Position numbers and translations under genes: made by a program. From the NCBI GenBank assembly GCA_026004795.1, contig BPJV01000002.1, forward strand, positions 434,001-498,000: a stretch of DNA of 64,000 bases. The letters are read 5' to 3'. The notes beneath the pieces are model-generated. The model worked only from the letters and a program-made list of their open reading frames with translations, did no database searches and was not told where the DNA came from. Positions 26,943 to 63,544 of this stretch are shown in pieces (within the stretch, counting starts at the first letter, position 1; every line of letters starts with the position of its first letter). This DNA is from Pirellulaceae bacterium (GTDB taxonomy: Bacteria > Planctomycetota > Planctomycetia > Pirellulales > Pirellulaceae).

Positions 26943-27096
26943 CGTAGCAGCGACTAGGGGGTATGCTGGTTGCATCGCAGGGTCGTAGCTGACCTGCCAA
27001 GCCCTTGATTATAATTGGCGATCATGCCGTCTCTCCCACCAAATCCCTACGCCCCCGCGTAGCACACCGGCCCCCGCAATGAAAGGCAAATCGATC

Positions 27097-27990
27097 ATGA
27101 ATCCAGTCGAACCGCGGCGGAAGTTTCTTCAGTTCTGTGGCGGACTGACCGCGTGGGCAACTTCTGCCGCCGCATCTCGAACATTACTTGCCGCCCCCCC
27201 GATGGTGAAGATGCAGTTGGGCCTCGTCACCTATCAATGGGGAAAAGACATGGAGCTGGTGGAGTTGCTGGACGCCTGCGAACAGTCCGGGTTGCTGGGC
27301 GTGGAACTACGAACTGAGCATCGGCATGGCGTGGAACCACAGCTTACCCCCAAGCAGCGGGAAGACGTACGACGCCGTTTCGCCGACAGCCCCGTCGAGC
27401 TGGTCGGCTACGGTTCCAATTGCGAGTTCCATTCGCCCGATCCTGATCAACTGCAGGCCAATATGGAACTGGCCAAATCCTACATTCAATTGATGCACGA
27501 CTGCGGTGGCAGTGGCGTCAAGGTGAAGCCGAATGCGTTACCCCCCAATCGCCCGCCAGAAGCGACGATTGAGCAGATAGGCCGCGCGCTCAACGAGCTG
27601 GGGGAGTATGGCCAACGTTACGGGCAGAAAATCCGGGTGGAGGTCCACGGAAAGGAAACCAGCTCACTCCCCGTTATCCGCGATATCTTTGCGGTGGCCG
27701 ATCATCCGAACGTTTATGTCTGCTGGAATTGCAATCCAGAAGATTTGCACGGCGATGGCCTAGAAGCCAACTTCGCCATGGTGAAAGACCGCTTGGGGGA
27801 CACGATCCATGTGCGGGAGATGAACACTGACGCCTACCCCTACCCTCGCCTGATGCAGCTGCTGCTGGAAATGGATTACGCCGGTTGGGTCCTGTTGGAA
27901 GCTCGTACCAATCCACCGGACAAGGTGGCGGCAATGATCGAGCAGCGAACGTTGTTCGAGCGTCTTACTGGACGTCGTAGCGGACGGTGA
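27097..27990 (+). CDS. Sugar phosphate isomerase/epimerase-type TIM-barrel protein
   Basis: 297 aa from ATG at 27097 (ATG at 27079 is also in frame). The N-terminus RRKFLQFCGGLTAWATSAAA is a twin-arginine signal, so the protein is probably exported folded. The rest fits the xylose isomerase-like TIM-barrel family (AP_endonuc_2): QLGLVTYQWGKDMELVELLDACEQ (abbreviated), RVEVHGKETSSLPVI, NVYVCWNCNPEDLHGDGL and GWVLLEARTNPPDKVAAM. Metal ligands are plausible at the Glu/His/Asn positions of these segments. Substrate unknown. It lies upstream of, and parallel to, the microcompartment operon, but a hairpin and 446 bases separate them. Confidence 0.84.
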   Translation: MNPVEPRRKFLQFCGGLTAWATSAAASRTLLAAPPMVKMQLGLVTYQWGKDMELVELLDACEQSGLLGVELRTEHRHGVEPQLTPKQREDVRRRFADSPVELVGYGSNCEFHSPDPDQLQANMELAKSYIQLMHDCGGSGVKVKPNALPPNRPPEATIEQIGRALNELGEYGQRYGQKIRVEVHGKETSSLPVIRDIFAVADHPNVYVCWNCNPEDLHGDGLEANFAMVKDRLGDTIHVREMNTDAYPYPRLMQLLLEMDYAGWVLLEARTNPPDKVAAMIEQRTLFERLTGRRSGR

Positions 27991-28436: not shown

Positions 28437-29261
28437 ATGAGCAGCATGACGACGGAACAGCGCCGTGAAAAGCTGCTTGAGCTGGTCCGAGCTCGCGGGT
28501 TCGTGGCGATTACCGATTTGCGCAGTGAGTTGGAGGTCAGCGAATCGACCATCCGCCGCGATTTGGATTCCTTGGAGTCCAGTGGCGAAGTACGGCGAAC
28601 GCATGGTGGCGTCTTTTACGCGGGGGGAGGAGCTGCGACTCGCATCTTCGCCGATCGCCGCGCCAATGCTTGGGAGCGGAAGCGGCAGGTGGCCCGAGCG
28701 GCCAGCGAGCTGGTCGAGGACGGAGATACGTTACTGCTCGACGGTGGCAGCACCACCTACGAGTTGGCGCGTCAGTTGGTCGGCCGACCGCTGCAGATCG
28801 TGACCAACTCCTTGCCGCTAGCCAACCTGTTTGCCACCAACGATCAAGTCGACTTGGTGGTGTTAGGCGGGTACGTTCATTCCCGGACCGGTGTCACCTT
28901 GGGTCCTTACGCCAATTCGATGCTCAACTCGCTCAACGTACAAAAGGCGTTTCTGAGCATCGCCGGAGCGGACACGCGGGGGTACTACAACAGCAATCTC
29001 CTATTGGTGGAAACCGAACGGGCCATGATGCAAGCGGCCGACCAGACGATCATCGTTGCCGACAGTTCCAAGTTTGGACGCAGCTCCCTGGCCCGGCTGT
29101 GCCAATTGCATGAGGTCGATGCTGTGGTCAGTGACAGCGGATTAAGCCGGCATTGGCAGCAGCGTTTGGGACAGGCGGGAGTGCGTTTAGTGCTCGCCGC
29201 GCCCCTTGAGCAGGAAGACGACCAGACGGAAGGAGCAGGAGCGCAAACCGTGGTCGAGTAG
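28437..29261 (+). CDS. DeoR family transcriptional regulator of the microcompartment operon
   Basis: 274 aa. N-terminal helix-turn-helix typical of DeoR: RREKLLELVRARGFVAITDLRSELEVSESTIRRDLDSLESSGEVRRTHGGVF (core: EVSESTIRRDLDSLE). The C-terminal sensor domain (DeoRC, phosphosugar-isomerase-like) has LLLDGGSTTYELARQL, VTNSLPLANLF and VLGGYVHSRTGVTLGP. DeoR proteins normally bind a phosphorylated sugar; here fuculose- or rhamnulose-phosphate is a reasonable guess because the operon encodes a matching aldolase. First gene of the block; the inverted repeat in the promoter just upstream is a likely binding site. Confidence 0.9.
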   Translation: MSSMTTEQRREKLLELVRARGFVAITDLRSELEVSESTIRRDLDSLESSGEVRRTHGGVFYAGGGAATRIFADRRANAWERKRQVARAASELVEDGDTLLLDGGSTTYELARQLVGRPLQIVTNSLPLANLFATNDQVDLVVLGGYVHSRTGVTLGPYANSMLNSLNVQKAFLSIAGADTRGYYNSNLLLVETERAMMQAADQTIIVADSSKFGRSSLARLCQLHEVDAVVSDSGLSRHWQQRLGQAGVRLVLAAPLEQEDDQTEGAGAQTVVE

Positions 29262-29385
29262 CGGCCCTGCCGCGCAGGTCGCGGGAACCAGAGCATCTGT
29301 CTCTCTGCGGCTAAACCGGCCAGCCAATACCCAACAATTGGCCCACACGAATCAACAAGTTCACCACGTGGTACACGAACCGAAC

Positions 29386-30090
29386 ATGGCAATGACGCAA
29401 ATCGATCGAACGCAGGTAGAGGCTTTGGTGCGGCAAGTGGTGCGGCGAGTCATCACCGCTGGCCCATCGGCAACGACGGCGTCAGCGAAACCGGAGCTGC
29501 GCGTCAGCATCTCCGCCCGGCATGTCCACTTGACCGACGAGCATGTCGAACAACTATTCGGCAAGGGCCATAAGCTGACGATCGCCAAACCGCTTTACCA
29601 AGACGGGTTTTATGCCGCCGAGGAGACGGTAATGATCGTCGGCCCGCGTCGGCGCATGCTTCCCGAAGTCCGCGTGCTGGGGCCCACGCGGTCGCACAGC
29701 CAGGTGGAGTTGGCCTTTACCGATGCCATTTCCCTGGGGATCAACGCCCCGGTGCGCCATTCAGGGGACATCGCTGGTACGCCAGGATGCGTGCTTGTCG
29801 GTCCGGCCGGTGCAGTGGAACTGACCGAGGGCGTCATTCGTGCCGCCAGGCACGTGCACATGAACGAGCAGGAAGCTGCTTACTTCGGCGTCGCCGACAA
29901 GGAGTTGATGACGCTGAAGGTTCACAGTCCACAGTGTAGCGTCGCCTTCGAGGATGTACTGGTGCGCATCGACCCTCGGGCCAAGTTGGAGGTGCATATC
30001 GATACCGATGAAGGGAACGCCTGCAACCTGCCGGCGGCTACGCAAGTCGAGCTGGTCAAGCAGCAGGCCTGCCAGTGCCACTCGAGTTAG
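29386..30090 (+). CDS. pduL: PduL-type phosphotransacylase
   Basis: 234 aa from ATG at 29386 (a second ATG two codons later); a longer frame from 29206 overlaps the regulator gene and is not used. Residues 4-22 (IDRTQVEALVRQVVRRVIT) form an amphipathic helix that looks like an encapsulation peptide, followed by a flexible linker. The catalytic duplicated barrel has the zinc-binding motifs SISARHVHLTDEHVE and AARHVHMNEQEAAYFG. PduL exchanges CoA for phosphate on an acyl group, so it regenerates CoA inside the shell and supplies acyl-phosphate to the kinase encoded further along. Typical size for a metabolosome PduL. Confidence 0.94.
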   Translation: MAMTQIDRTQVEALVRQVVRRVITAGPSATTASAKPELRVSISARHVHLTDEHVEQLFGKGHKLTIAKPLYQDGFYAAEETVMIVGPRRRMLPEVRVLGPTRSHSQVELAFTDAISLGINAPVRHSGDIAGTPGCVLVGPAGAVELTEGVIRAARHVHMNEQEAAYFGVADKELMTLKVHSPQCSVAFEDVLVRIDPRAKLEVHIDTDEGNACNLPAATQVELVKQQACQCHSS

Positions 30091-30270
30091 CGTCGGCGCA
30101 GGAGGTCACCTCCCCACAGGATGGCGCCATCGCTGGGAGCAGGGGCACCGGGTGGCCGATAGGGGCACCAACGCAACGCCGACAAGGGCGCGCATTGCCG
30201 AGTCAACTGTTCAACGAAAGGGGCCATAAAGGCCAAGTCAACCATGCCAAAAACGAGGAGTAAATCGAAG

Positions 30271-30558
30271 ATGGCACAGATTTCCGAAGCGCTGGGAATG
30301 ATCGAGACGAAGGGCTTCGTTGCTCTCGTCGAAGCAGTCGATGCCATGATGAAAGCGGCGAACGTCCAGTTTCTCGGCTGGGACAAGGTGGGAAGCGGTC
30401 TGGTTTCCGCGTTCGTCACCGGCGATGTCGCCGCCGTCAAGGCAGCTACGGATGCCGGAGCCAATGCCGCCGGCCGTGTGGGAGAGGTCGTCAGTGTCCA
30501 GGTGATCGCTCGACCTCACGAGGACTTGCCCAAGGTGCTCAAGGTCGGCACCAAGTAA
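30271..30558 (+). CDS. BMC-H shell protein (hexamer) 1
   Basis: 95 aa from ATG at 30271, preceded by GAGGAG; an in-frame ATG at 30244 is less well placed. It is a single BMC domain: [50 protein letters not shown], and VIARPHEDL (segments shortened), as in PduA/EutM-type hexamers that tile the facets of a microcompartment. It forms a pair with the next gene, which encodes a second BMC-H. The pore region (VGSGL) has the small residues typical of a metabolite-permeable pore. Confidence 0.95.
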
Positions 30559-30615
30559 TCTCCTTCCCGCAAACCGCATTTCGACATACTTCCATATTTA
30601 AAGGACATCACAGCT

Positions 30616-30885
30616 ATGCAACAAGCAATTGGTCTCATCGAAACCAAGGGGTTGTTGGCGTTGGTCGAAGCGACCGATGCCATGGTGAAGGCAGCCAGCG
30701 TGGAGATCGTGAAGCGGATCGACATTGGAGGCGGCCTGGTGACGACGGTTGTCAGTGGCGACGTGGGCAGCGTCCGCGCGGCAGTGGAAGCCGGCGCCAA
30801 CGCGGCCTCCCAGGTAGGCGAACTGGTCAGCAGCCACATCATTCCTCGCCCGGCGGAAGGTTTGGCGTCGGCTTTTTTCGGCTAG
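30616..30885 (+). CDS. BMC-H shell protein (hexamer) 2
   Basis: 89 aa, a second single-domain BMC protein: QAIGLIETKGLLALVEATDAMVK, IGGGLVTTVVSGDVGSVRAAVEAG, IIPRPAEGL (shortened). It differs from BMC-H 1 in the pore loop (DIGGGL against KVGSGL) and in the C-terminus, so the two hexamers probably have different permeability. GGACATCACAGCT precedes the ATG (AAAGGA at 30599-30604). No trimeric BMC-T gene is present in the locus. Confidence 0.95.
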   Translation: MQQAIGLIETKGLLALVEATDAMVKAASVEIVKRIDIGGGLVTTVVSGDVGSVRAAVEAGANAASQVGELVSSHIIPRPAEGLASAFFG

Positions 30886-30989
30886 TGCCTGCTAGCGGCG
30901 TCGCTACGGCGGCGCCCCGATCGGCAGTTTCCCACGCAACCGACATCCAGGGACAAGCTCTGTCTGCAGCCAGGAGGCATTCCAGGGGC

Positions 30990-32204
30990 ATGAAGATCCT
31001 CGTCGCGAATCTCGGGTCCACCAGCTTCAAGTACCGCCTGTTCGACATGGGGACTCCGGCGGTCGATGCGCCACGCCAGTTGGCTCGTGGTAGCGTCGAA
31101 CGCATCGGTGCCGACGTGAGCCCCTGCCGCGTGGAGATTGGCGACCAGGTCAGCCAGCTGGAGATGGCGGTTCCCCACCACGGCGTGGCCGTCGAAGCAT
31201 GCCTGCAGCAATTGACCGATCCCGAGCATGGATGCTTGAAATCCGCCGACGAAGTGGCGGGAATCGGCTTCAAGGCGGTGCACGGCGGTCGGCTATCGGG
31301 CGTCTATCGTGTCACCGAAGAGGTGCTGCAGGCGATGGAGGAGGTGGCGGAGGTGGCTCCTGCCCACAATCCTCCGTACATTGCCGCCATGAGGCAGCTC
31401 GCCCAGACGGTTCCCCAGATTCCCTTGGTGGCGGCATTTGAAACGGATTTTCATCGGACGATCCCCGAGCCGCGCCGTCGCTACGCGATCCCCCATCCGT
31501 GGGCCGAGGAGTTGCCGATTCGCAAATGGGGATTCCACGGTGCCAGCCACCGTTACATCGCCGAGCGGTCGGCACAGTTGATGGGACGCGAGGATGCACG
31601 GGTCATCTCGTTGCATCTGGGTGGATCGAGCAGCCTGTGCGCCATCGCCGCCGGTCAGAGTGTCGCCACGACGATGGGGATGAGCCCACAGTCGGGGGTG
31701 CCGCAGAACAATCGCGTGGGCGACTTCGATCCCTTCACCCTGCCGCTGATTATGCGGCATACCGGATTGTCGCTCGAACAAGTGCTGCACGAACTGGGCA
31801 CCAGTGGTGGTCTCCTCGGCTTGTCCGCCGGCGCCGGCCGCGACTTGCGCGATTTGCAACAGGCGGCGGCAGCAGGCAACGACGCGGCACGTCTGGCCAT
31901 CGACGTCTACGTGGAGGAGATTCGGCGCCATCTCGGTGGCATGCTGGTGGCCCTGGGGGGTGGCGATGCGCTGGTGTTCACCGGCGGCATCGGGGAGAAC
32001 GCGGCCGATATTCGCGCCGCGGTGTGTCGGGGACTGGAGCAACTGGGGATCGTGTTGGACGAACAACGCAATTCCCAGGTTCGCGCTGCGGAGGCGAGAA
32101 TCGACGCCCAGCGTGCCGGGGCCGTCGAGATCTGGGTGATTCCCACCAACGAAGAGCTGATTGTCGCTCGACAAACGGCGCAGGTCCTGGCGTCGACACG
32201 GTAG
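30990..32204 (+). CDS. ackA: Acetate kinase family enzyme
   Basis: 404 aa from ATG at 30990. The frame is open from a GTG at 30885 that overlaps the previous stop, but the extra 35 residues are not family-like. ASKHA-family motifs are clear: NLGSTSFKYRLF at the start, FHGASHRYIAERSAQL, HLGGSSSLCAIAAGQS and FTGGIGENAADIR. Acetate kinase converts acyl-phosphate plus ADP to a carboxylate plus ATP. In this operon its acyl-phosphate would come from PduL, so lactyl-, propionyl- or acetyl-phosphate are possible substrates. It has no apparent encapsulation peptide, so it may work outside the shell. Confidence 0.93.
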   Translation: MKILVANLGSTSFKYRLFDMGTPAVDAPRQLARGSVERIGADVSPCRVEIGDQVSQLEMAVPHHGVAVEACLQQLTDPEHGCLKSADEVAGIGFKAVHGGRLSGVYRVTEEVLQAMEEVAEVAPAHNPPYIAAMRQLAQTVPQIPLVAAFETDFHRTIPEPRRRYAIPHPWAEELPIRKWGFHGASHRYIAERSAQLMGREDARVISLHLGGSSSLCAIAAGQSVATTMGMSPQSGVPQNNRVGDFDPFTLPLIMRHTGLSLEQVLHELGTSGGLLGLSAGAGRDLRDLQQAAAAGNDAARLAIDVYVEEIRRHLGGMLVALGGGDALVFTGGIGENAADIRAAVCRGLEQLGIVLDEQRNSQVRAAEARIDAQRAGAVEIWVIPTNEELIVARQTAQVLASTR

Positions 32205-32251
32205 GTCGCTAGGCCGATTGGTAAAACTTTGCATCAGGTAGCAAGCAGAAC

Positions 32252-32578
32252 ATGTTCGTCGCGAAAGTAACCGGCTCCGTGGTGGCGACCCAAAAGGTGG
32301 CCACCATGCGCGGCCATAAGCTGTTGGTGGTCGAACCCTACCGGTTGGATCAACAGAACCGTCGTCAATTGACTACCACCGGACGAACCTTCGTCGCCGT
32401 CGACACCTTGGGAGCCGGCATCGGTGACTTCGTGCTGATCGTCCAAGGCAGTAGTGCGCGGTTCACCCCGGAAACACAACAATTGCCCATCGACTGCGTG
32501 GTGATCGGGATCGTGGATAGCGTCAGCGTCGACAAACATGCCATCTATCACCGCACCGGCGATTCGCGGGAGGAGTAA
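32252..32578 (+). CDS. BMC-P vertex protein 1 (EutN/CcmL family)
   Basis: 108 aa. Pentameric vertex family: MFVAKVTGSVVATQKVATMRGHKLLVVEPY (shortened to VTGSVVATQKV and GHKLLVVEP), FVAVDTLGAGIGDFVLIVQGSSAR and CVVIGIVDSVSV. These proteins close the corners of the icosahedral shell. It is the first of three BMC-P genes in the operon and lies 6 bases before the aldehyde dehydrogenase gene. Confidence 0.94.
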   Translation: MFVAKVTGSVVATQKVATMRGHKLLVVEPYRLDQQNRRQLTTTGRTFVAVDTLGAGIGDFVLIVQGSSARFTPETQQLPIDCVVIGIVDSVSVDKHAIYHRTGDSREE

Positions 32579-32584
32579 ACAACG

Positions 32585-34036
32585 ATGCAGGTAAATGAAG
32601 AGTTGATTCGATCGGTTGTTACCCAGGTTCTTCAGGAAGTACGCGGTCGTGCGACCAGCAGCGGTTCTGGTACCAGCACGCAAGCGTTCATAGGACGGTT
32701 CGGCCAGTTCGATTGTCCCGACGAGGCCGTCGCCGCCGCACGGCACGCCTTCGAACAATTGCGTGCTCGGCCACTGGAGGACCGACGTCGCGCCATCGAG
32801 CACATCCGTCGCATCTCCATCGAGCAGGCGGTAGAGCTGGGGACGATGGAGATGGAGGAAACGGGCATCGGTAGGCTCGAGCACAAAATTGAAAAACTGG
32901 AGACCTTAGGTCGGCTGACCCCCGGCACCGAGTTTCTCTCCACGCAGGCCTTCAGTGGCGATAAAGGGTTGGCGGTCATCGAACACGCGCCCTTCGGCGT
33001 GATCGGCGCTATTACCCCGGTCACCCACTCGTTGCCGACGATAACCGGCAACGCGATCAACATGATCGCTGCAGGGAACACGGTGGTGGTCAATCCGCAT
33101 CCCAGCGGCAGACGTGTTGCCGCCGAGGGGGTACGTCGTTTCAATCAGGCGATCTGCGACGACCTGGGAATCGATAACTTGATCTGCGTGATTCGGCAAC
33201 CTACCTTGGATACCGCCAACGCCATCTTCAAGCATCGTGACATCGCGTTGATTTGCGTCACGGGGGGACCGGCAGTGGGGCGAGCCGCCCTGCGCAGCGG
33301 CAAACGGGCGATCGTTGCTGGGCCTGGCAATCCACCGGTGGTGGTCGACGAGACGGCCGATCTGCCACGAGCCGCACGATGCATCATCCAAGGTGCTGCC
33401 TACGACAATAACTTGCTGTGCATTGCAGAAAAAGAGGTGTTCGTGGTCGAGCGCGTGTTCGACGATTTGGTCGATGCGTTGCGGATGGCTGGAGCCGTGC
33501 ACCTGGATCGCGGGCAGGTCCAGCGGCTGACGGCAGCCGCCATGCACGAAGTGGGAGAGGATCGTCATCTGGCGCCGACCAAGGAGCTGCTGGGGCAGGA
33601 TGCCGCCAAGCTGGCTCGTGCCGCCGGGATGAATGTCCCGGAAGAAACGGAGCTATTGTTCGGCGAGACGTCGTTCGAGCATCCTTTTGTGCAAGTCGAA
33701 CAGATGATGCCGTTCATCCCGCTGGTCCGGTGCCGGGATGTCGACCAGTGCATTGAACTGGCACGTCAAGCCGAGCATGGCTTCCGCCACACGGCCATCA
33801 TCCATTCGCGGGACGTACACCACATGACCAAGATGGCGCGAGCGCTGGATACCACGCTGTTCGTCAAAAACGGTCCCTGCATGGCTGCACTGGGAATCGG
33901 TGGGGAAGGCTACTTGTCGTTTTCCATCGCCGGACCGACGGGCGAGGGAGTGACCACGCCATTGACGTTCACCCGTGAGCGCCGTTGCAGCTTGATCGAC
34001 GACTTGTGGATTCTCGGCAGCCCCGACAACCGTTAG
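32585..34036 (+). CDS. CoA-acylating aldehyde dehydrogenase (PduP/EutE type)
   Basis: 483 aa. Residues 1-19 (MQVNEELIRSVVTQVLQEV) form an amphipathic encapsulation-type helix followed by a Gly/Ser/Thr linker. The ALDH body has GVIGAITPVTHSLPTITGN, ICVTGGPAVGRAALRSGK and the catalytic cysteine in YDNNLLCIAEKE (Cys279 by my count). This is the acylating branch: aldehyde + NAD+ + CoA gives acyl-CoA + NADH. In this locus lactaldehyde from the aldolase is the expected substrate, giving lactyl-CoA for PduL. It sits between two BMC-P genes. Confidence 0.93.
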   Translation: MQVNEELIRSVVTQVLQEVRGRATSSGSGTSTQAFIGRFGQFDCPDEAVAAARHAFEQLRARPLEDRRRAIEHIRRISIEQAVELGTMEMEETGIGRLEHKIEKLETLGRLTPGTEFLSTQAFSGDKGLAVIEHAPFGVIGAITPVTHSLPTITGNAINMIAAGNTVVVNPHPSGRRVAAEGVRRFNQAICDDLGIDNLICVIRQPTLDTANAIFKHRDIALICVTGGPAVGRAALRSGKRAIVAGPGNPPVVVDETADLPRAARCIIQGAAYDNNLLCIAEKEVFVVERVFDDLVDALRMAGAVHLDRGQVQRLTAAAMHEVGEDRHLAPTKELLGQDAAKLARAAGMNVPEETELLFGETSFEHPFVQVEQMMPFIPLVRCRDVDQCIELARQAEHGFRHTAIIHSRDVHHMTKMARALDTTLFVKNGPCMAALGIGGEGYLSFSIAGPTGEGVTTPLTFTRERRCSLIDDLWILGSPDNR

Positions 34037-34071
34037 CCGCCAGGCCCCTGGGGCGTAGAAGGAGATTGTCT

Positions 34072-34371
34072 GTGCAGATCGCGCTGGTGGTAGGTCATGC
34101 TACCGCAACCGTGAAACATCCGACTCTCGAAGGGCAAAAACTGCTCGTCGCTCAACCGCTGATGAGGGACGGTTGTTCGGCGGACGGCCCTCCGTTGTTG
34201 GTCGTTGATCGCCTGGGCGCTGGGATTGGTGATCAGATCGTCATCACCAGCGACGGCCGCGCGGTCCGGGAACTCTTTGGCTTGGAGAATTCTCCCATCC
34301 GCTGGACCGTGCTCGGCATGGCCGATCGTCCGGATTGGCAGAGAACCAACGAACTTAGCAAAGACGAGTAG
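34072..34371 (+). CDS. BMC-P vertex protein 2 (EutN/CcmL family)
   Basis: 99 aa from GTG at 34072, supported by AAGGAGA seven bases upstream; the longer frame from 33985 runs back into the dehydrogenase gene. Family pattern: VGHATATVKHPTLEGQKLLVAQPL, LLVVDRLGAGIGDQIVITSDG and WTVLGMAD. It differs in loop length from the other two BMC-P proteins, which is expected if the three occupy distinct vertex roles or have non-redundant gating. The next gene starts 3 bases later. Confidence 0.92.
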   Translation: MQIALVVGHATATVKHPTLEGQKLLVAQPLMRDGCSADGPPLLVVDRLGAGIGDQIVITSDGRAVRELFGLENSPIRWTVLGMADRPDWQRTNELSKDE

Positions 34372-34374
34372 AAC

Positions 34375-35094
34375 GTGAGTTCCTCGAACGTAACCACAGA
34401 AATCGAATCGATCGTGCAGATCGTTTTGCAGCGATTGCAGGAGCAGTTCCGCGCCCCGGGGGAGATGTCCCACCGCCCCTGGCGAACGGACCAGGCGGGA
34501 GCTTCGGCGGCGGGAGGTGAACCCCATCGCCTGACGGGAGAAGGTACCGCGGGGGGACGCGTGAACCTCCATTGCCGCGTGTTGGCGTTGGCGACGTTGC
34601 GGGAGGTTCCCCCCGATACGACCGAGTTGGTGGTTCCCGCGCGATGCGTGGTAACCCCTGCCGTGATCGATGAATTGCGCCAGCGGGGATGGAAGCTCAC
34701 GCGACGTGCTGCCGCTGTTGCGGGAGGCCATCAGGTATCGCCATACGCCGGGCTATTGCTCAGCGATGGAGGCGCTCACAACGTAGCTTGGCCAGGAGAA
34801 CGACTCCAGGGATCGGGAGACATCCCGGCCGACGTTCGTCGGGTCACGGCACACTTGGCCGCAGGTGGTCAATGGGCGGTTTGGTGGACCAGCCGCCCCT
34901 TTGCCGCGATGCACAACCTGGTTAGGGCGCGCGACACCCGGCCAGTGATGTTGCCCCGTCTGGACGACCTGGCACGGGCTGAACATCAGACGCAGCCCAA
35001 CGTGTGGGTGATCGACCGGGAAACCTGGACCGGAGGTCAGGTGGAGCGACTGGGCCACTACTTGTTCACGCCAGCAACGGAGAATCGAGGATGA
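34375..35094 (+). CDS. Unassigned microcompartment-associated protein with encapsulation-type helix
   Basis: 239 aa starting with GTG at 34375, three bases after the preceding stop. Residues 6-25 (VTTEIESIVQIVLQRLQEQF) are an amphipathic helix followed by a disordered Gly/Pro/Ala linker, the layout of an encapsulation peptide. The folded part begins with LVVPARCVVTPAVIDELRQRGWKL, which resembles the short domain at the start of EutT/PduM-type proteins. Then SPYAGLLLSDGG, GGQWAVWWTSRPFAAMHNLVRAR and NVWVIDRETW. No catalytic motif recognised. Its stop overlaps the next BMC-P start (ATGA). Probably a lumen protein; function unknown. Confidence 0.85.
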   Translation: MSSSNVTTEIESIVQIVLQRLQEQFRAPGEMSHRPWRTDQAGASAAGGEPHRLTGEGTAGGRVNLHCRVLALATLREVPPDTTELVVPARCVVTPAVIDELRQRGWKLTRRAAAVAGGHQVSPYAGLLLSDGGAHNVAWPGERLQGSGDIPADVRRVTAHLAAGGQWAVWWTSRPFAAMHNLVRARDTRPVMLPRLDDLARAEHQTQPNVWVIDRETWTGGQVERLGHYLFTPATENRG

Positions 35095-35399
35095 AGATCC
35101 ATCGCACCATTGGCCATGTCACCCTCAACCGTGCGCACCCCAGCTATCAAGGGGCGCGGTTGGTGCTGGCCGAACCGCTGGGCACGGAGATGGTTGGGGG
35201 ACTGTCGGAAAGCGAACCGGAGCTGATTGCCGTGTGGGACGACCTGGGAGCCGGGCCGGGCAGCGTGATCGCCGTCAGCGATGGAGCGGAAGCGGCACAG
35301 CCTTTCCGGCCGGAACTCAAGGCCGTTGATGCCTACTGCAGCGCGATTTTGGACTTCGTGCATATCGATGAAAAGGTGAAACAACGCATTCGTTGGTAA
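35091..35399 (+). CDS. BMC-P vertex protein 3 (EutN/CcmL family)
   Basis: 102 aa from ATG at 35091, which overlaps the stop of the previous gene by four bases; the longer open frame from 35004 is inside that gene. Family features: TIGHVTLNRAHPSYQGARLVLAEPL, LIAVWDDLGAGPGSVIAVSDG and SAILDFVHIDE. The C-terminal tail (KVKQRIRW) is basic. With the other two BMC-P proteins the operon has three vertex paralogues and two hexamer proteins. Confidence 0.93.
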   Translation: MKIHRTIGHVTLNRAHPSYQGARLVLAEPLGTEMVGGLSESEPELIAVWDDLGAGPGSVIAVSDGAEAAQPFRPELKAVDAYCSAILDFVHIDEKVKQRIRW

Positions 35400-35419
35400 T
35401 TCGAACCGAGGGGTCGGAA

Positions 35420-36289
35420 ATGGAAAATATCTTCAAGATCAAACAAGATATCTGCGATATCGGCCGGCGCATCTACAACAAAGGGTTTGCGGCCGCCAAT
35501 GATGGCAACATCACGGTACGCGTGGGGGAAAACGAGGTCCTGTGCACACCGACGATGCACTCCAAAGGTTTTCTCAGACCGGACGACATCTGCACCATCG
35601 ACATGGAGGGAAATCAAATCGCCGGGCGCAAGAAACGAAGCAGCGAAGCGCTGTTGCACCTGGAAATCTACCGGCAGCGCCCGGATGTCAAGTCGGTGGT
35701 GCACTGCCATCCCCCCCACGCCACCGCCTTTGCGGTGGCCCGCGAACCGATCCCACAATGTGTGCTTCCCGAGGTAGAAGTTTTCCTCGGCGACGTCCCC
35801 ATCACGCGCTACGAAACACCGGGAGGAAAGGCGTTTGCCGAAACCGTCATTCCCTTCGTCCACAAATCGAACGTCATCATTCTGGCCAATCATGGCACCG
35901 TCAGTTTCGGGGAGAACGTGGAGCGGGCCTACTGGTGGACGGAGATCTTGGATGCCTACTGTCGCATCCTCATGCTTTCCCGCCAACTGGGGCGGGTCAA
36001 TTACTTGGACTATGAAAAGAGCCGAGAGTTGTTGGAGCTGAAAAGCAAATGGGGCTTTAGCGACCCACGATTGAGTGAGGAATACAAGAATTGCGATATC
36101 TGTGCCAACGACATCTTCCGCGAAAGCTGGACAGAGTCAGGCGTGCAGCGCCAGGCGTTCGAGCCGCCGCCCCCGATGCGCCCGGTCAGGACCGAGGCGG
36201 GGGAGCAAGCAGCGCGTGCTGGCTCCTTGGATGAAGAGCGTCTCGTGCAAATGATTACCGACCAAGTGATGAAGCAGTTGGGAGCGTAA
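35420..36289 (+). CDS. Class II aldolase (fuculose/rhamnulose-phosphate type) with encapsulation-type tail
   Basis: 289 aa from ATG at 35420. Class II aldolase/adducin fold with zinc-binding histidines in VVHCHPPHATAF and LANHGTVSFG, and the catalytic-loop region RSSEALLHLE. The AANDGNITVRV segment binds the phosphate. It would split fuculose- or rhamnulose-1-phosphate to dihydroxyacetone phosphate and lactaldehyde. After the catalytic domain (about residue 235) a Pro-rich linker leads to a C-terminal amphipathic helix, DEERLVQMITDQVMKQLG, which looks like an encapsulation peptide. The sugar isomerase and kinase needed upstream are not in the window. Confidence 0.92.
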   Translation: MENIFKIKQDICDIGRRIYNKGFAAANDGNITVRVGENEVLCTPTMHSKGFLRPDDICTIDMEGNQIAGRKKRSSEALLHLEIYRQRPDVKSVVHCHPPHATAFAVAREPIPQCVLPEVEVFLGDVPITRYETPGGKAFAETVIPFVHKSNVIILANHGTVSFGENVERAYWWTEILDAYCRILMLSRQLGRVNYLDYEKSRELLELKSKWGFSDPRLSEEYKNCDICANDIFRESWTESGVQRQAFEPPPPMRPVRTEAGEQAARAGSLDEERLVQMITDQVMKQLGA

Positions 36290-36355
36290 GCGGCAGGCAA
36301 GGGCGCACGCGGGGGAGATAAAGCAGTTCGGTGGCAATACGTTTGGGGAAGGTGC

Positions 36356-37300
36356 ATGGCGATGAAGGTCAGTATCATTGGTGGTGGAGGTTTAGTTGGC
36401 TCTTGTGCTGGTTTTGCGCTGCAGTGCGGCGGTATTGCCCGCGAGATCGCGTTGATCGATGTGAATGCGGAACTGGCTGCAGGCCAGGCGCTCGATCTGT
36501 TGCACGGCACACCGAGCGTCGCCGATCAGAGGATCACCTCAGGATCCTACGAACACATCCCCAGCAGCGACATCGTCTGCATCACCGCGGGCCTGCGTCG
36601 CAAACCGGATGAGACGCGGCTCGATCTGATCAATCGCAACACCGATTTGTTTGTGCAGATCTGTCGTGATGTCCGAGCCGCCGGCTTGAAACCGTCGGCC
36701 AAGGTGCTGGTGGTGAGCAACCCGGTCGATATTCTTACCTACGTCGCCGCCCAGACGCTCGACCTGCCGACCAATCAGATTCTCGGGTTGGGGACACAGT
36801 TGGATACCATTCGCTTTTGCAGCCTGATTGCCGACCAAATCGGTGCTCCTCCGACGCAGGTTCGCGCGCTGATTTTGGGAGAGCACGGCGATAGCATGGT
36901 GCCTATCTGGTCCAGCGCGACGGTTGCGGGGTTGCCATTGGAGAAGCACCCCGGCTGGAACCACCAACTGGCCAATCAGATCTTCCAACGCACCAAGGGG
37001 TCGGGGGCCGAAGTGATTTCAAAGAAGGGTGGAGCGGGCTTCGCCGTGGGGATTGCTATCCGCGACGTCCTCGATGCGATCATGCTCGATCAGCGCCGCA
37101 TCTTGCCAGTCAGCTCCGTGCAAGACGGTTGTTACGGGATCCGTGACGTGGCGCTGTCGGTCCCCACCGTCGTTGGTGCGGAAGGGGTGTTGGATCGCCT
37201 GGAAATCGACTTGTGGCCGAAGGAGGTGCAAGGATTGCGCCGCAGCGCTGCCGCACTGCGGCCCACCCTGACCAGCGTGCTACAACGCATCGGATTGTAG
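36356..37300 (+). CDS. Malate/L-lactate dehydrogenase family oxidoreductase
   Basis: 314 aa. NAD-binding motif IIGGGGLVGSCAGF at the N-terminus, Asp of the adenosine pocket in ALIDVNAE, catalytic Arg in LGTQLDTIRF and catalytic His in ILGEHGDSMVP. The substrate-specificity loop reads AGLRRKPDETRLDL: the position that is Gln in L-lactate dehydrogenases is Arg82 here, as in malate dehydrogenases. In the locus it probably recycles NADH to NAD+ for the aldehyde dehydrogenase. The natural substrate (pyruvate, oxaloacetate or another 2-oxo acid, or lactaldehyde) cannot be settled. Last gene of the operon; about 65 bases after the aldolase. Confidence 0.88.
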   Translation: MAMKVSIIGGGGLVGSCAGFALQCGGIAREIALIDVNAELAAGQALDLLHGTPSVADQRITSGSYEHIPSSDIVCITAGLRRKPDETRLDLINRNTDLFVQICRDVRAAGLKPSAKVLVVSNPVDILTYVAAQTLDLPTNQILGLGTQLDTIRFCSLIADQIGAPPTQVRALILGEHGDSMVPIWSSATVAGLPLEKHPGWNHQLANQIFQRTKGSGAEVISKKGGAGFAVGIAIRDVLDAIMLDQRRILPVSSVQDGCYGIRDVALSVPTVVGAEGVLDRLEIDLWPKEVQGLRRSAAALRPTLTSVLQRIGL

Positions 37301-61803: not shown

Positions 61804-63544
61804 ATGGCACACGACGTGAACCTAAGCGAACAGGAGGTCGCTGTAGAATTGCCGCAGGCAGTCAAGGAATCGATCGGTGAAGAACGTTATGAATTATGGC
61901 TGGGTGAAGCACAGCGATGGAAGATCGAAGGGGGACGTCTTGAAGTCACCTTTCCGAACGAGTTCGCCGCCACGTTGGCCACCAAACGCGTGCTGGAAGA
62001 CGTCACTCGTGCCGTAGAAGCGTGGCGCGGCCACCGAATTGAAGTCTGCTTCGCCGCCGAGGCACGGCTTCCTGTCACCCTCGCCAACCGCCCCATCGTC
62101 AGCCCCCAGCCGTTCACCGACCGTCCCTGCTCCCATCGCGAAGAAGTTGTCGTCCGCATCGGAAAACGGCATCGCACCGTCGTTCGCGGACGGTTCGCCA
62201 ATCGCTTCACCCCATGCTACCGATGCTGCTGAACATGCCCATTCCCATAGCCATGATCGGGCGCAGACCGGTGTGGAGCGGCTCGCGCAACGCAGGCAGA
62301 TCTTGACGGCAGAGCCATCATCCGCAAAAGACAGACAAACCGAGGGCAATGAAAAAGCTGGCAAAAACAGGAAAGACAAACAAAGAACAACCGGCGTGGA
62401 AGTTGGTAGGTCCACTTCCGGAGCGGGCAGCGATTGTGAGCCAACGGTACCAAGAGGTATAACTACAGGCGGTTCAGGAGTGGAGACCGGCTTCGCTCCA
62501 TCAAGTTCTTCGCCGCCTGCAGCGACCGAATCGGTTTTAGTCGTGAGTGAGTGCAATCAACTCGCCTGGTCGACCGCCAAGCTAGTGCTGGGAGAACCGG
62601 GACGCTACAGTCCGGTACTCTTCTTCGGTCCCAGCGGCTGCGGAAAATCGCTGTTGATGGCCACGGTAGCATCACAGCTTCGGCGGCGTTGTGGGATGCG
62701 ACGTGTGCAGGTGGTGACCAGCGAACAATTTACCAATGATTTCACCAGCGGGTTGTGTGGGCGACAGTTGCCGATGTTTCGCGACAAGTACCGTGGCGTC
62801 GATGCCCTGCTGGTCGAAGATGTGCAATTCTTGATGGGCAAGCGTAGTACGCTCAACGAATTCCGGTACACCATCGACAATCTGGTGCGTCGTGGAAAAC
62901 AGGTCGTATTGACCGCGGATCGTCCTTTATCCGAGTTGCACGGTCTGGGCAAGCAGCTGGTGGGGCGTCTGCAAGCCGGATTGACTGCCCCTCTATTGCC
63001 GCTCGATGAATCGGCGCGGCGGCGAGCGCTGCAGCACATGCTCGACGGTAGCCAGGTTCGGCTACCAGCAGACATCGTGGAACAATTGGCGGCTCGTGCC
63101 TCCGGAGACGGTCGCGTGCTCAGCGGCATTGCCAAACGGTTGATCGCCCACGCACGACTTTCCACTCAACCTTTGACCTGGGAGGCGTGTTGGGAAGCGG
63201 TGGCGGATCTGGTGCATGCGGTGCAACCGGTGGTTAAGATCAAGGATATCGAACGGGCGGTATGCTCGGTTTTTGGACTGGAACCGGGCAGTTTGCAGTC
63301 GCAGAGCAAGACGCGCCGCGTTAGCCAACCACGAATGATCGCCATGTTCCTGGCCAGAAAGTACACCCCGGCAGCTTACAAAGAGATCGGTCAGTACTTC
63401 GGCAAACGTCGACACAGTACGGTGATCGCGGCCCAGCGTTCCGTGGAACAATGGTTGCAAGAGAATGCCCCGCTGGAATGCGCGGGCGGGTTGCCGGTGC
63501 GCGAGTTGCTGAGGCATACCGAAGCGCATCTGCAGGTGAGTTGA
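61804..63544 (+). CDS. dnaA: Chromosomal replication initiator DnaA, split by an apparent frameshift
   Basis: Domain I is encoded from ATG 61804 in one frame (AVKESIGEERYELWLGEAQRW, LEVTFPNEFAATLATKRVLEDV) and that frame stops at 62230-62232. The AAA+ domain III and DNA-binding domain IV are in the frame one base forward, open from 62018 to the stop at 63544: Walker A FGPSGCGKSLLM, Walker B ALLVEDVQFLMGK, and IAMFLARKYTPAAYKEIGQYFGKRRHSTV. The shift must lie between 62018 and 62232, in the variable linker (domain II), perhaps near a run of C around 62101. It could be an assembly error, a true disruption or programmed. If real, domain III/IV could start from TTG 62039. Confidence 0.85.

Follow-up and report, generated by a model that had tools for sequence, protein, structure and literature searches.

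The window analysed here is a stretch of 64,000 nucleotides from a Pirellulaceae bacterium (GenBank assembly GCA_026004795.1, contig BPJV01000002.1, positions 434,001 to 498,000; contig C2 of genome G000 in our numbering). At 28437-37300, on the forward strand, it carries a bacterial microcompartment (BMC) locus of 12 collinear genes. One of these, at 34375-35094, had been overlooked, and we predict that it encodes the protein that links shell to cargo in compartments of the Planctomycetes/Verrucomicrobia (PVM) type. To the account as a whole, namely a PVM-type metabolosome that is most likely fed by L-rhamnose, runs a route from rhamnose to lactate and uses the 34375 protein as its shell-cargo linker, we give a probability of about three in four. 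The genes, their order, the conserved residues, the similarity of a module within the 34375 protein to parts of other BMC proteins, and the patchy absence of that protein's tail are established by computation.

The predicted shell-cargo linker

The initial annotation had counted eleven collinear genes. The collinearity stands; the number does not, the true count being 12 with the gene at 34375-35094. This gene lies between the second and third of three BMC-P genes, and its end overlaps the start of the third (35085). No Pfam or NCBIfam family matches the product at E 0.001. A 44-row alignment (A3) divides it into an N-terminal encapsulation-type helix, a linker, a module of about 50 residues and a variable tail, and the AlphaFold2 model has a mean predicted local distance difference test score (pLDDT) of 81.5, with blocks of 91-97 over residues 61-110 and 141-230. 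The gene and its segments, with the evidence for the latter (HMM, hidden Markov model), are:

34375-35094, forward strand: predicted shell-cargo linker, 239 residues, GTG start, between BMC-P 2 and BMC-P 3
34384-34449, forward strand: encapsulation-type helix, residues 4-25 (AlphaFold2 helix, block pLDDT 62-80; alignment A3)
34558-34713, forward strand: module of about 50 residues, residues 62-113 (HMM tests with decoys, reciprocal HMM, hhalign)
34810-35076, forward strand: RpiB-like tail without the CG(S/T)G loop, residues 146-234 (Foldseek, hhalign, block pLDDT)

The linker role is predicted because the match of the module to EutQ covers the segment that has been assigned to shell binding (PMC12487888). 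Residues 1-99 of Salmonella EutQ connect shell and cargo: helices H1/H2 (9-41) go with the shell, cargo peptides are the partners of H3/H4, and assembly does not need the EutQ cupin (PMC12487888). The module aligns with residues 2-48 of K-12 EutQ, spanning the shell-side helices. By analogy, the N-terminal helix of the 34375 protein would join the cargo, its EutQ-H1/H2-like module would dock on the shell, and the RpiB-like tail would be a dispensable pseudoenzyme.

The arrangement is not that of EutQ, in which the module precedes the cargo-binding helices, whereas the 34375 protein begins with its helix. The cupin of EutQ is replaced in the PVM proteins by the RpiB-like tail or by nothing, and no cupin match was listed for the 34375 protein in the Pfam and NCBIfam scans. 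PduM, which sits between core and shell (PMC9132943), offers a second comparison: it has an N-terminal signal helix (PMC12108088) and carries the module at its C-terminus. It differs in that the window protein has no match to the PduM models, and the body of PduM between helix and module is not known to resemble RpiB.

A module shared with other compartment types

An HMM of the module was searched against 342 open reading frames (ORFs) of four other BMC regions. The C-terminus of a Rahnella TIGR02536-like protein scored 31.0 bits and the N-terminus of an EutQ-like cupin protein from Enterococcus raffinosus 20.1; the N-termini of K-12 EutT and EutQ scored 13.7 and 12.8. In a separate search, residues 120-162 of 163 in E. 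coli PduM (L181, named by NCBIfam) scored 13.3. Among decoys, the best of 702 other ORFs reached 6.5 bits and the best of 1,097 reversed ORFs 7.0. The presence of the module on the E. raffinosus protein is at odds with the statement that Gram-positive EutQ (E. faecalis, L. monocytogenes) lacks the first three helices (PMC12487888).

A reciprocal HMM, made from six non-PVM segments, was run on 100 PVM loci (8,761 ORFs) and found 83 ORFs at E up to 1, all of them among the 92 module ORFs of the first HMM. Within the window the 34375 protein tops the 418 ORFs (E 8.6e-4, next 0.5), and hhalign matches the two HMMs at 97.5% (E 6.7e-12). When the 44 members were compared with NCBIfam at E up to 0.1, TIGR02536 was matched in 17, PduM models in 9 and EutQ in 5. 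Where positions were shown, the TIGR02536 and PduM matches are C-terminal, apart from two at the PduM N-terminal end; the nine PduM matches are weak, and none exceeds its cut-off where bits were shown.

In our estimate the odds are a little better than even that these segments represent one shell-docking module of about 50 residues, common to at least four BMC types in varied domain orders, and that the PVM version is a linker whose minimal form consists of helix plus module in 81-145 residues. Its carriers would be EutQ and EutT in the EUT type, PduM in PDU, the TIGR02536-like protein and the EutQ-like cupin in GRM, and the 34375 gene in PVM. If true, PduM does have relatives outside PDU compartments, contrary to PMC12108088, which states that it has no known sequence homology there. 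PduM goes unmentioned in PMC12487888, and no earlier report of a module shared by EutQ, EutT and PduM was found in a limited literature search.

The NCBIfam EutA model PRK10719.1-1 matches K-12 EutQ (L177 19303-20004) over residues 6-92 at E 1.6e-9, and this model may contain a EutQ-type N-terminus.

The tail and its probable loss

Structural and profile comparisons support an RpiB fold for the tail of the 34375 protein. The first 44 Foldseek matches in the PDB comprise 40 ribose-5-phosphate isomerases and 4 related sugar isomerases, with TM-scores of 0.3-0.7 and a best E of 4.7e-4, the sole value below 0.001. Compared by hhalign with 28 RpiB sequences of relatives, residues 146-234 match at 93% (E 3.4e-7), and a reversed profile gives 0.1%. 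A profile search of the PDB gave only weak matches, led by a Pumilio protein (E 0.0072), with RpiB at E 0.29. Pfam LacAB_rpiB matched 8 of the 44 members and NCBIfam RpiB-type models 4-5 (E up to 0.1 for NCBIfam). A PF02502 scan of 40 relatives gave four weak extra matches, three of them on contigs with PVM genes (G263:C30, G046:C15 and G109:C18). In the profile alignment the CGTG loop of RpiB is replaced in the 34375 protein; the CG(S/T)G loop belongs to the active site of RpiB and has a catalytic role there. The module was also tried as a piece of RpiB and this was not supported (hhalign 0.2%).

A protein search found the gene in 42 of the 297 genomes of the class, with 31-38% identity even within the genus. 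The module HMM found it in all 76 named loci that have both flanking BMC-P genes, 43 of which had been used for building the HMM and 33 not. The tail is present in 61 of the 76; the other 15 looked short, and 14 are left after exclusion of L113, where the tail lies in a separate ORF, probably through a frameshift. The short forms, of 81-145 residues, keep helix and module (the AlphaFold2 model of one is weak, pLDDT 69). Among 20 loci sampled across the class, 16 carry the gene, all with the tail. There is no room for it in L059, L061 and L062, so the gene is not required in every PVM compartment, and no BMC-P gene was found in L063.

In a quickly made tree of 70 loci, based on the aldehyde dehydrogenase, 7 changes are required to explain the short form. 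Starred branches force 5 of these, and shuffles average 13; without L113 the number drops to 6. The tree retains the very long branch of L146 and omits L133, a short form in a locus without a full aldehyde dehydrogenase. Such counts are blind to gain versus loss, and the short forms are read as tail losses because the loci of the wider class carry the tail. This pattern makes the RpiB-like tail look dispensable, in contrast to the helix and the module, which are retained.

The PVM locus

The initial annotation had described a complete BMC locus with two BMC-H genes, three BMC-P genes and no BMC-T gene, along with PduL, an aldehyde dehydrogenase, an acetate-kinase homologue, a class II aldolase and a malate/lactate dehydrogenase. 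Pfam and NCBIfam bear out both the shell genes and the enzymes. The other eleven genes are:

28437-29261, forward strand: DeoR-family regulator, PvmA type (DeoRC 1.1e-48, HTH_DeoR 2.3e-15)
29359-30090, forward strand: PduL phosphotransacylase, N-terminal encapsulation-type helix by eye (PF06130 6e-74)
30244-30558, forward strand: BMC-H, basal type, with KAAN and ARPH motifs (PF00936 2.9e-26)
30616-30885, forward strand: second BMC-H (PF00936 2.4e-27)
30990-32204, forward strand: acetate/propionate kinase family (TIGR00016 333 bits, cut-off 293)
32252-32578, forward strand: BMC-P 1 (PF03319 2.3e-29)
32585-34036, forward strand: acylating aldehyde dehydrogenase, N-terminal encapsulation-type helix by eye (NF011927 626 bits, cut-off 403)
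34057-34371, forward strand: BMC-P 2 (PF03319 7.7e-20, genome scan)
35085-35399, forward strand: BMC-P 3 (PF03319 4.2e-14)
35420-36289, forward strand: class II aldolase, signature enzyme, C-terminal encapsulation-type helix by eye (PF00596 4.1e-49)
36356-37300, forward strand: lactate/malate dehydrogenase (TIGR01771 and PRK06223 matches, both below cut-off)

All three BMC-P genes exceed the PF03319 cut-off in the genome scan and stand against two BMC-H genes; no BMC-T gene lies within 28437-37300. The start codon of PduL is uncertain (GTG at 29359 or an ATG further on), and the meaning of the KAAN and ARPH motifs for BMC-H is taken from PMC8217296. The encapsulation peptides were assigned by eye because a hydrophobic-moment scan gave no separation between cargo and the remaining proteins; none was seen by eye in the acetate-kinase homologue. 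Scans of promoters and terminators gave site counts no higher than in shuffles.

Judged by its gene content, this is an ordinary PVM locus. The PVM set of aldehyde dehydrogenase, PduL, acetate kinase, DeoR regulator, lactate/malate dehydrogenase and class II aldolase, as defined in PMC4207490, PMC8217296 and PMC11958385, is complete in one place; 285 PVM representatives are counted in PMC8217296. The pvm cluster of Planctopirus limnophila has 13 genes (pvmABDEGHIJKLMNO; PMC11958385) as against 12 here, a comparison by count only.

A profile search of named genomes with the aldolase matched at least 594 stretches, at least 580 of them relatives, and the best 80 were kept; the nearest of these belong for the most part to Pirellulaceae, Planctomycetaceae or unclassified Planctomycetota. 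Many of their contigs are cut short, and all eleven other genes are present in 44 of the 80; the genes that are present on the contig keep the order of the window locus in 80 of 80. Five have an extra downstream dehydrogenase ORF, which in L152 is perhaps one split gene. The order also agrees in the 20 loci from across the class. There, L059-L061 have a third BMC-H, the search yielded no dehydrogenase in L053 and L054, and in L063 it yielded no more than the first four genes. Because BMC domains are present in 239 of the 297 genomes of the class and the gene order recurs across loci, the locus is not a product of chance.

Two further genes of the window were noted by eye. Just upstream of the locus, at 27079-27990, is a gene that resembles sugar-phosphate isomerases/epimerases and has a signal-type start, and at 62039-63544 is a gene with a DnaA-like ATPase and DNA-binding domains.

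Enzymes and the proposed pathway

The view that this is a fucose/rhamnose-type locus in which an aldolase makes the aldehyde, put forward in the initial annotation, is supported by gene content, gene order and active-site markers. Glu76, His95, His97 and His158 of the aldolase are invariant in 20 of 20 aligned sequences; by comparison with fuculose-phosphate aldolase they are the metal ligands. Most pvm PduL proteins carry Tyr or Phe at position 77, which has been related to lactyl-CoA (PMC4784909). In the PduL of the window the residue aligned with Gln77 of rPduL is Phe (alignment to 5cuo, numbering of PMC4784909), and the 21 sequences compared have 13 Phe, 4 Tyr, 3 Asp and 1 Glu there, an aromatic residue in 17 of 21.

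At the site of Gln102 in lactate dehydrogenase (LDH), 65 of 65 PVM dehydrogenases, including that of the window, carry Arg. We take Arg here to mark the malate type, and this residue suggests a malate-type rather than a lactate-type substrate for the PVM dehydrogenase; the window enzyme scores below both the LDH and the malate dehydrogenase cut-offs of NCBIfam.

In the route that follows we infer the substrate and the fluxes, as we do the function of the linker. RhaA and a RhaB-like kinase, both encoded outside the locus, would yield L-rhamnulose-1-phosphate, which the encapsulated class II aldolase would cleave to dihydroxyacetone phosphate and L-lactaldehyde. The encapsulated aldehyde dehydrogenase would convert the latter to lactyl-CoA, PduL would make lactyl-phosphate, and the acetate-kinase homologue would release lactate with formation of ATP. 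NAD would be regenerated by the dehydrogenase with its Arg102-type residue, through a malate-type reaction and not through reduction of lactaldehyde.

The absence of the early isomerase and kinase, claimed in the initial annotation, holds for the locus and not for the genome, which is 96.8% complete. L-rhamnose isomerase RhaA is encoded on contig C4 (TIGR01748 651 bits, cut-off 585), and about 58 kb beyond the window, on C2, lies a kinase that scores best with the RhaB family, at 471.8 bits and below the equivalog cut-off of 528 (fuculokinase, 104.8 bits). The remaining two FGGY kinases of the genome are of xylulokinase and glycerol-kinase type. No match was found in the genome to the fucose isomerase C-domain PF02952 (N-terminal FucI domains were not searched) or to GH29. 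Because RhaA and the RhaB-like kinase are present and PF02952 has no match, L-rhamnose is the likelier substrate on these markers, and L-fucose was rejected as the likelier one. At L013 6973-9766 (G000:C4) the RhaA gene stands immediately before a transporter gene that weakly matches cytosine permease and is a possible rhamnose uptake gene.

One lone tandem-BMC gene (BMC-T type) was found far from the locus, on contig C5 (L008 9135-9899; G000:C5, about 271100-271900). At E 1e-30 it has relatives in 34 of the 297 class genomes and, by our own count from the tables, in 17 of 42 in the family. We take it to be a satellite shell gene, because its neighbours look, by eye, unrelated to the pathway. 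Since the reported binding site of EutQ lies between a BMC-T and a BMC-H protein, the lone BMC-T may be an optional partner of the linker.

Alternative explanations

Several results weigh against the account given here. Matches of the module outside PVM span just 12-31 bits, the EutT alignment is confined to residues 16-47, and an Ilyobacter homologue fell below threshold with the module HMM (E 0.28). The reciprocal HMM missed 9 of the 92 module ORFs, and its independence is incomplete, because the choice of the six segments was aided by the first HMM. Searched singly, the 34375 protein draws no NCBIfam match at E 0.1, and its one Pfam match, to HTH_39, falls short of the cut-off. The N-terminus of EutQ is described as four helices (PMC12487888), as against strands and helices in the AlphaFold2 module, and three class loci leave no room for the gene. 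With regard to the sugar, the RhaB-like kinase falls short of its cut-off, no operator common to pvm and rha genes was found, and GH78 (PF17389) and GH106 have no match in the genome. The sugar would therefore have to arrive free or via another enzyme; rhamnose is probably taken up as the free sugar.

The module might instead be an enzyme-side or structural element, shared for dimerisation or cofactor handling and without any part in shell binding. EutT is an adenosyltransferase, and we have seen no linker role described for the TIGR02536-like protein, both of which carry the module. However, EutQ residues 9-41, the segment assigned to shell association (PMC12487888), lie within the aligned region, and PduM takes part in core-shell binding (PMC9132943), so that we consider this explanation doubtful. 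The 34375 protein might also be an encapsulated, working sugar-phosphate isomerase and not a linker, given its RpiB-like fold and profile similarity and the occurrence of RpiB-type isomerases in SPU loci (PMC4207490). An RpiB-type fold inside a BMC locus is indeed common to both cases, but the SPU proteins are 48-53% identical to real RpiB, whereas the window tail is remote from it. Its CG(S/T)G loop is replaced, and 14 of 76 loci lack the tail, with six changes on the tree, but retain helix and module. On these grounds the tail was rejected as an active RpiB, and we regard a working isomerase as highly improbable. It is unlikely, finally, that the same compartment serves mainly L-fucose or another sugar 1-phosphate, with a promiscuous aldolase and with RhaA and the RhaB-like kinase belonging to another route. 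Both fucose and rhamnose are handled by PVM compartments, and class II aldolases are described as promiscuous in general (PMC4207490), but neither the fucose isomerase C-domain nor GH29 has a match in this nearly complete genome, and RhaA scores above its cut-off.

Implications

By itself, the locus adds one member to an already known compartment type. The predicted linker matters because, in the partly surveyed literature, no PVM gene was found assigned to cargo-shell attachment. The shared module, if true, would give a common cargo-loading rule across compartment types, and the natural forms of 81-145 residues would be ready-made minimal linkers for tests and for compartment engineering.

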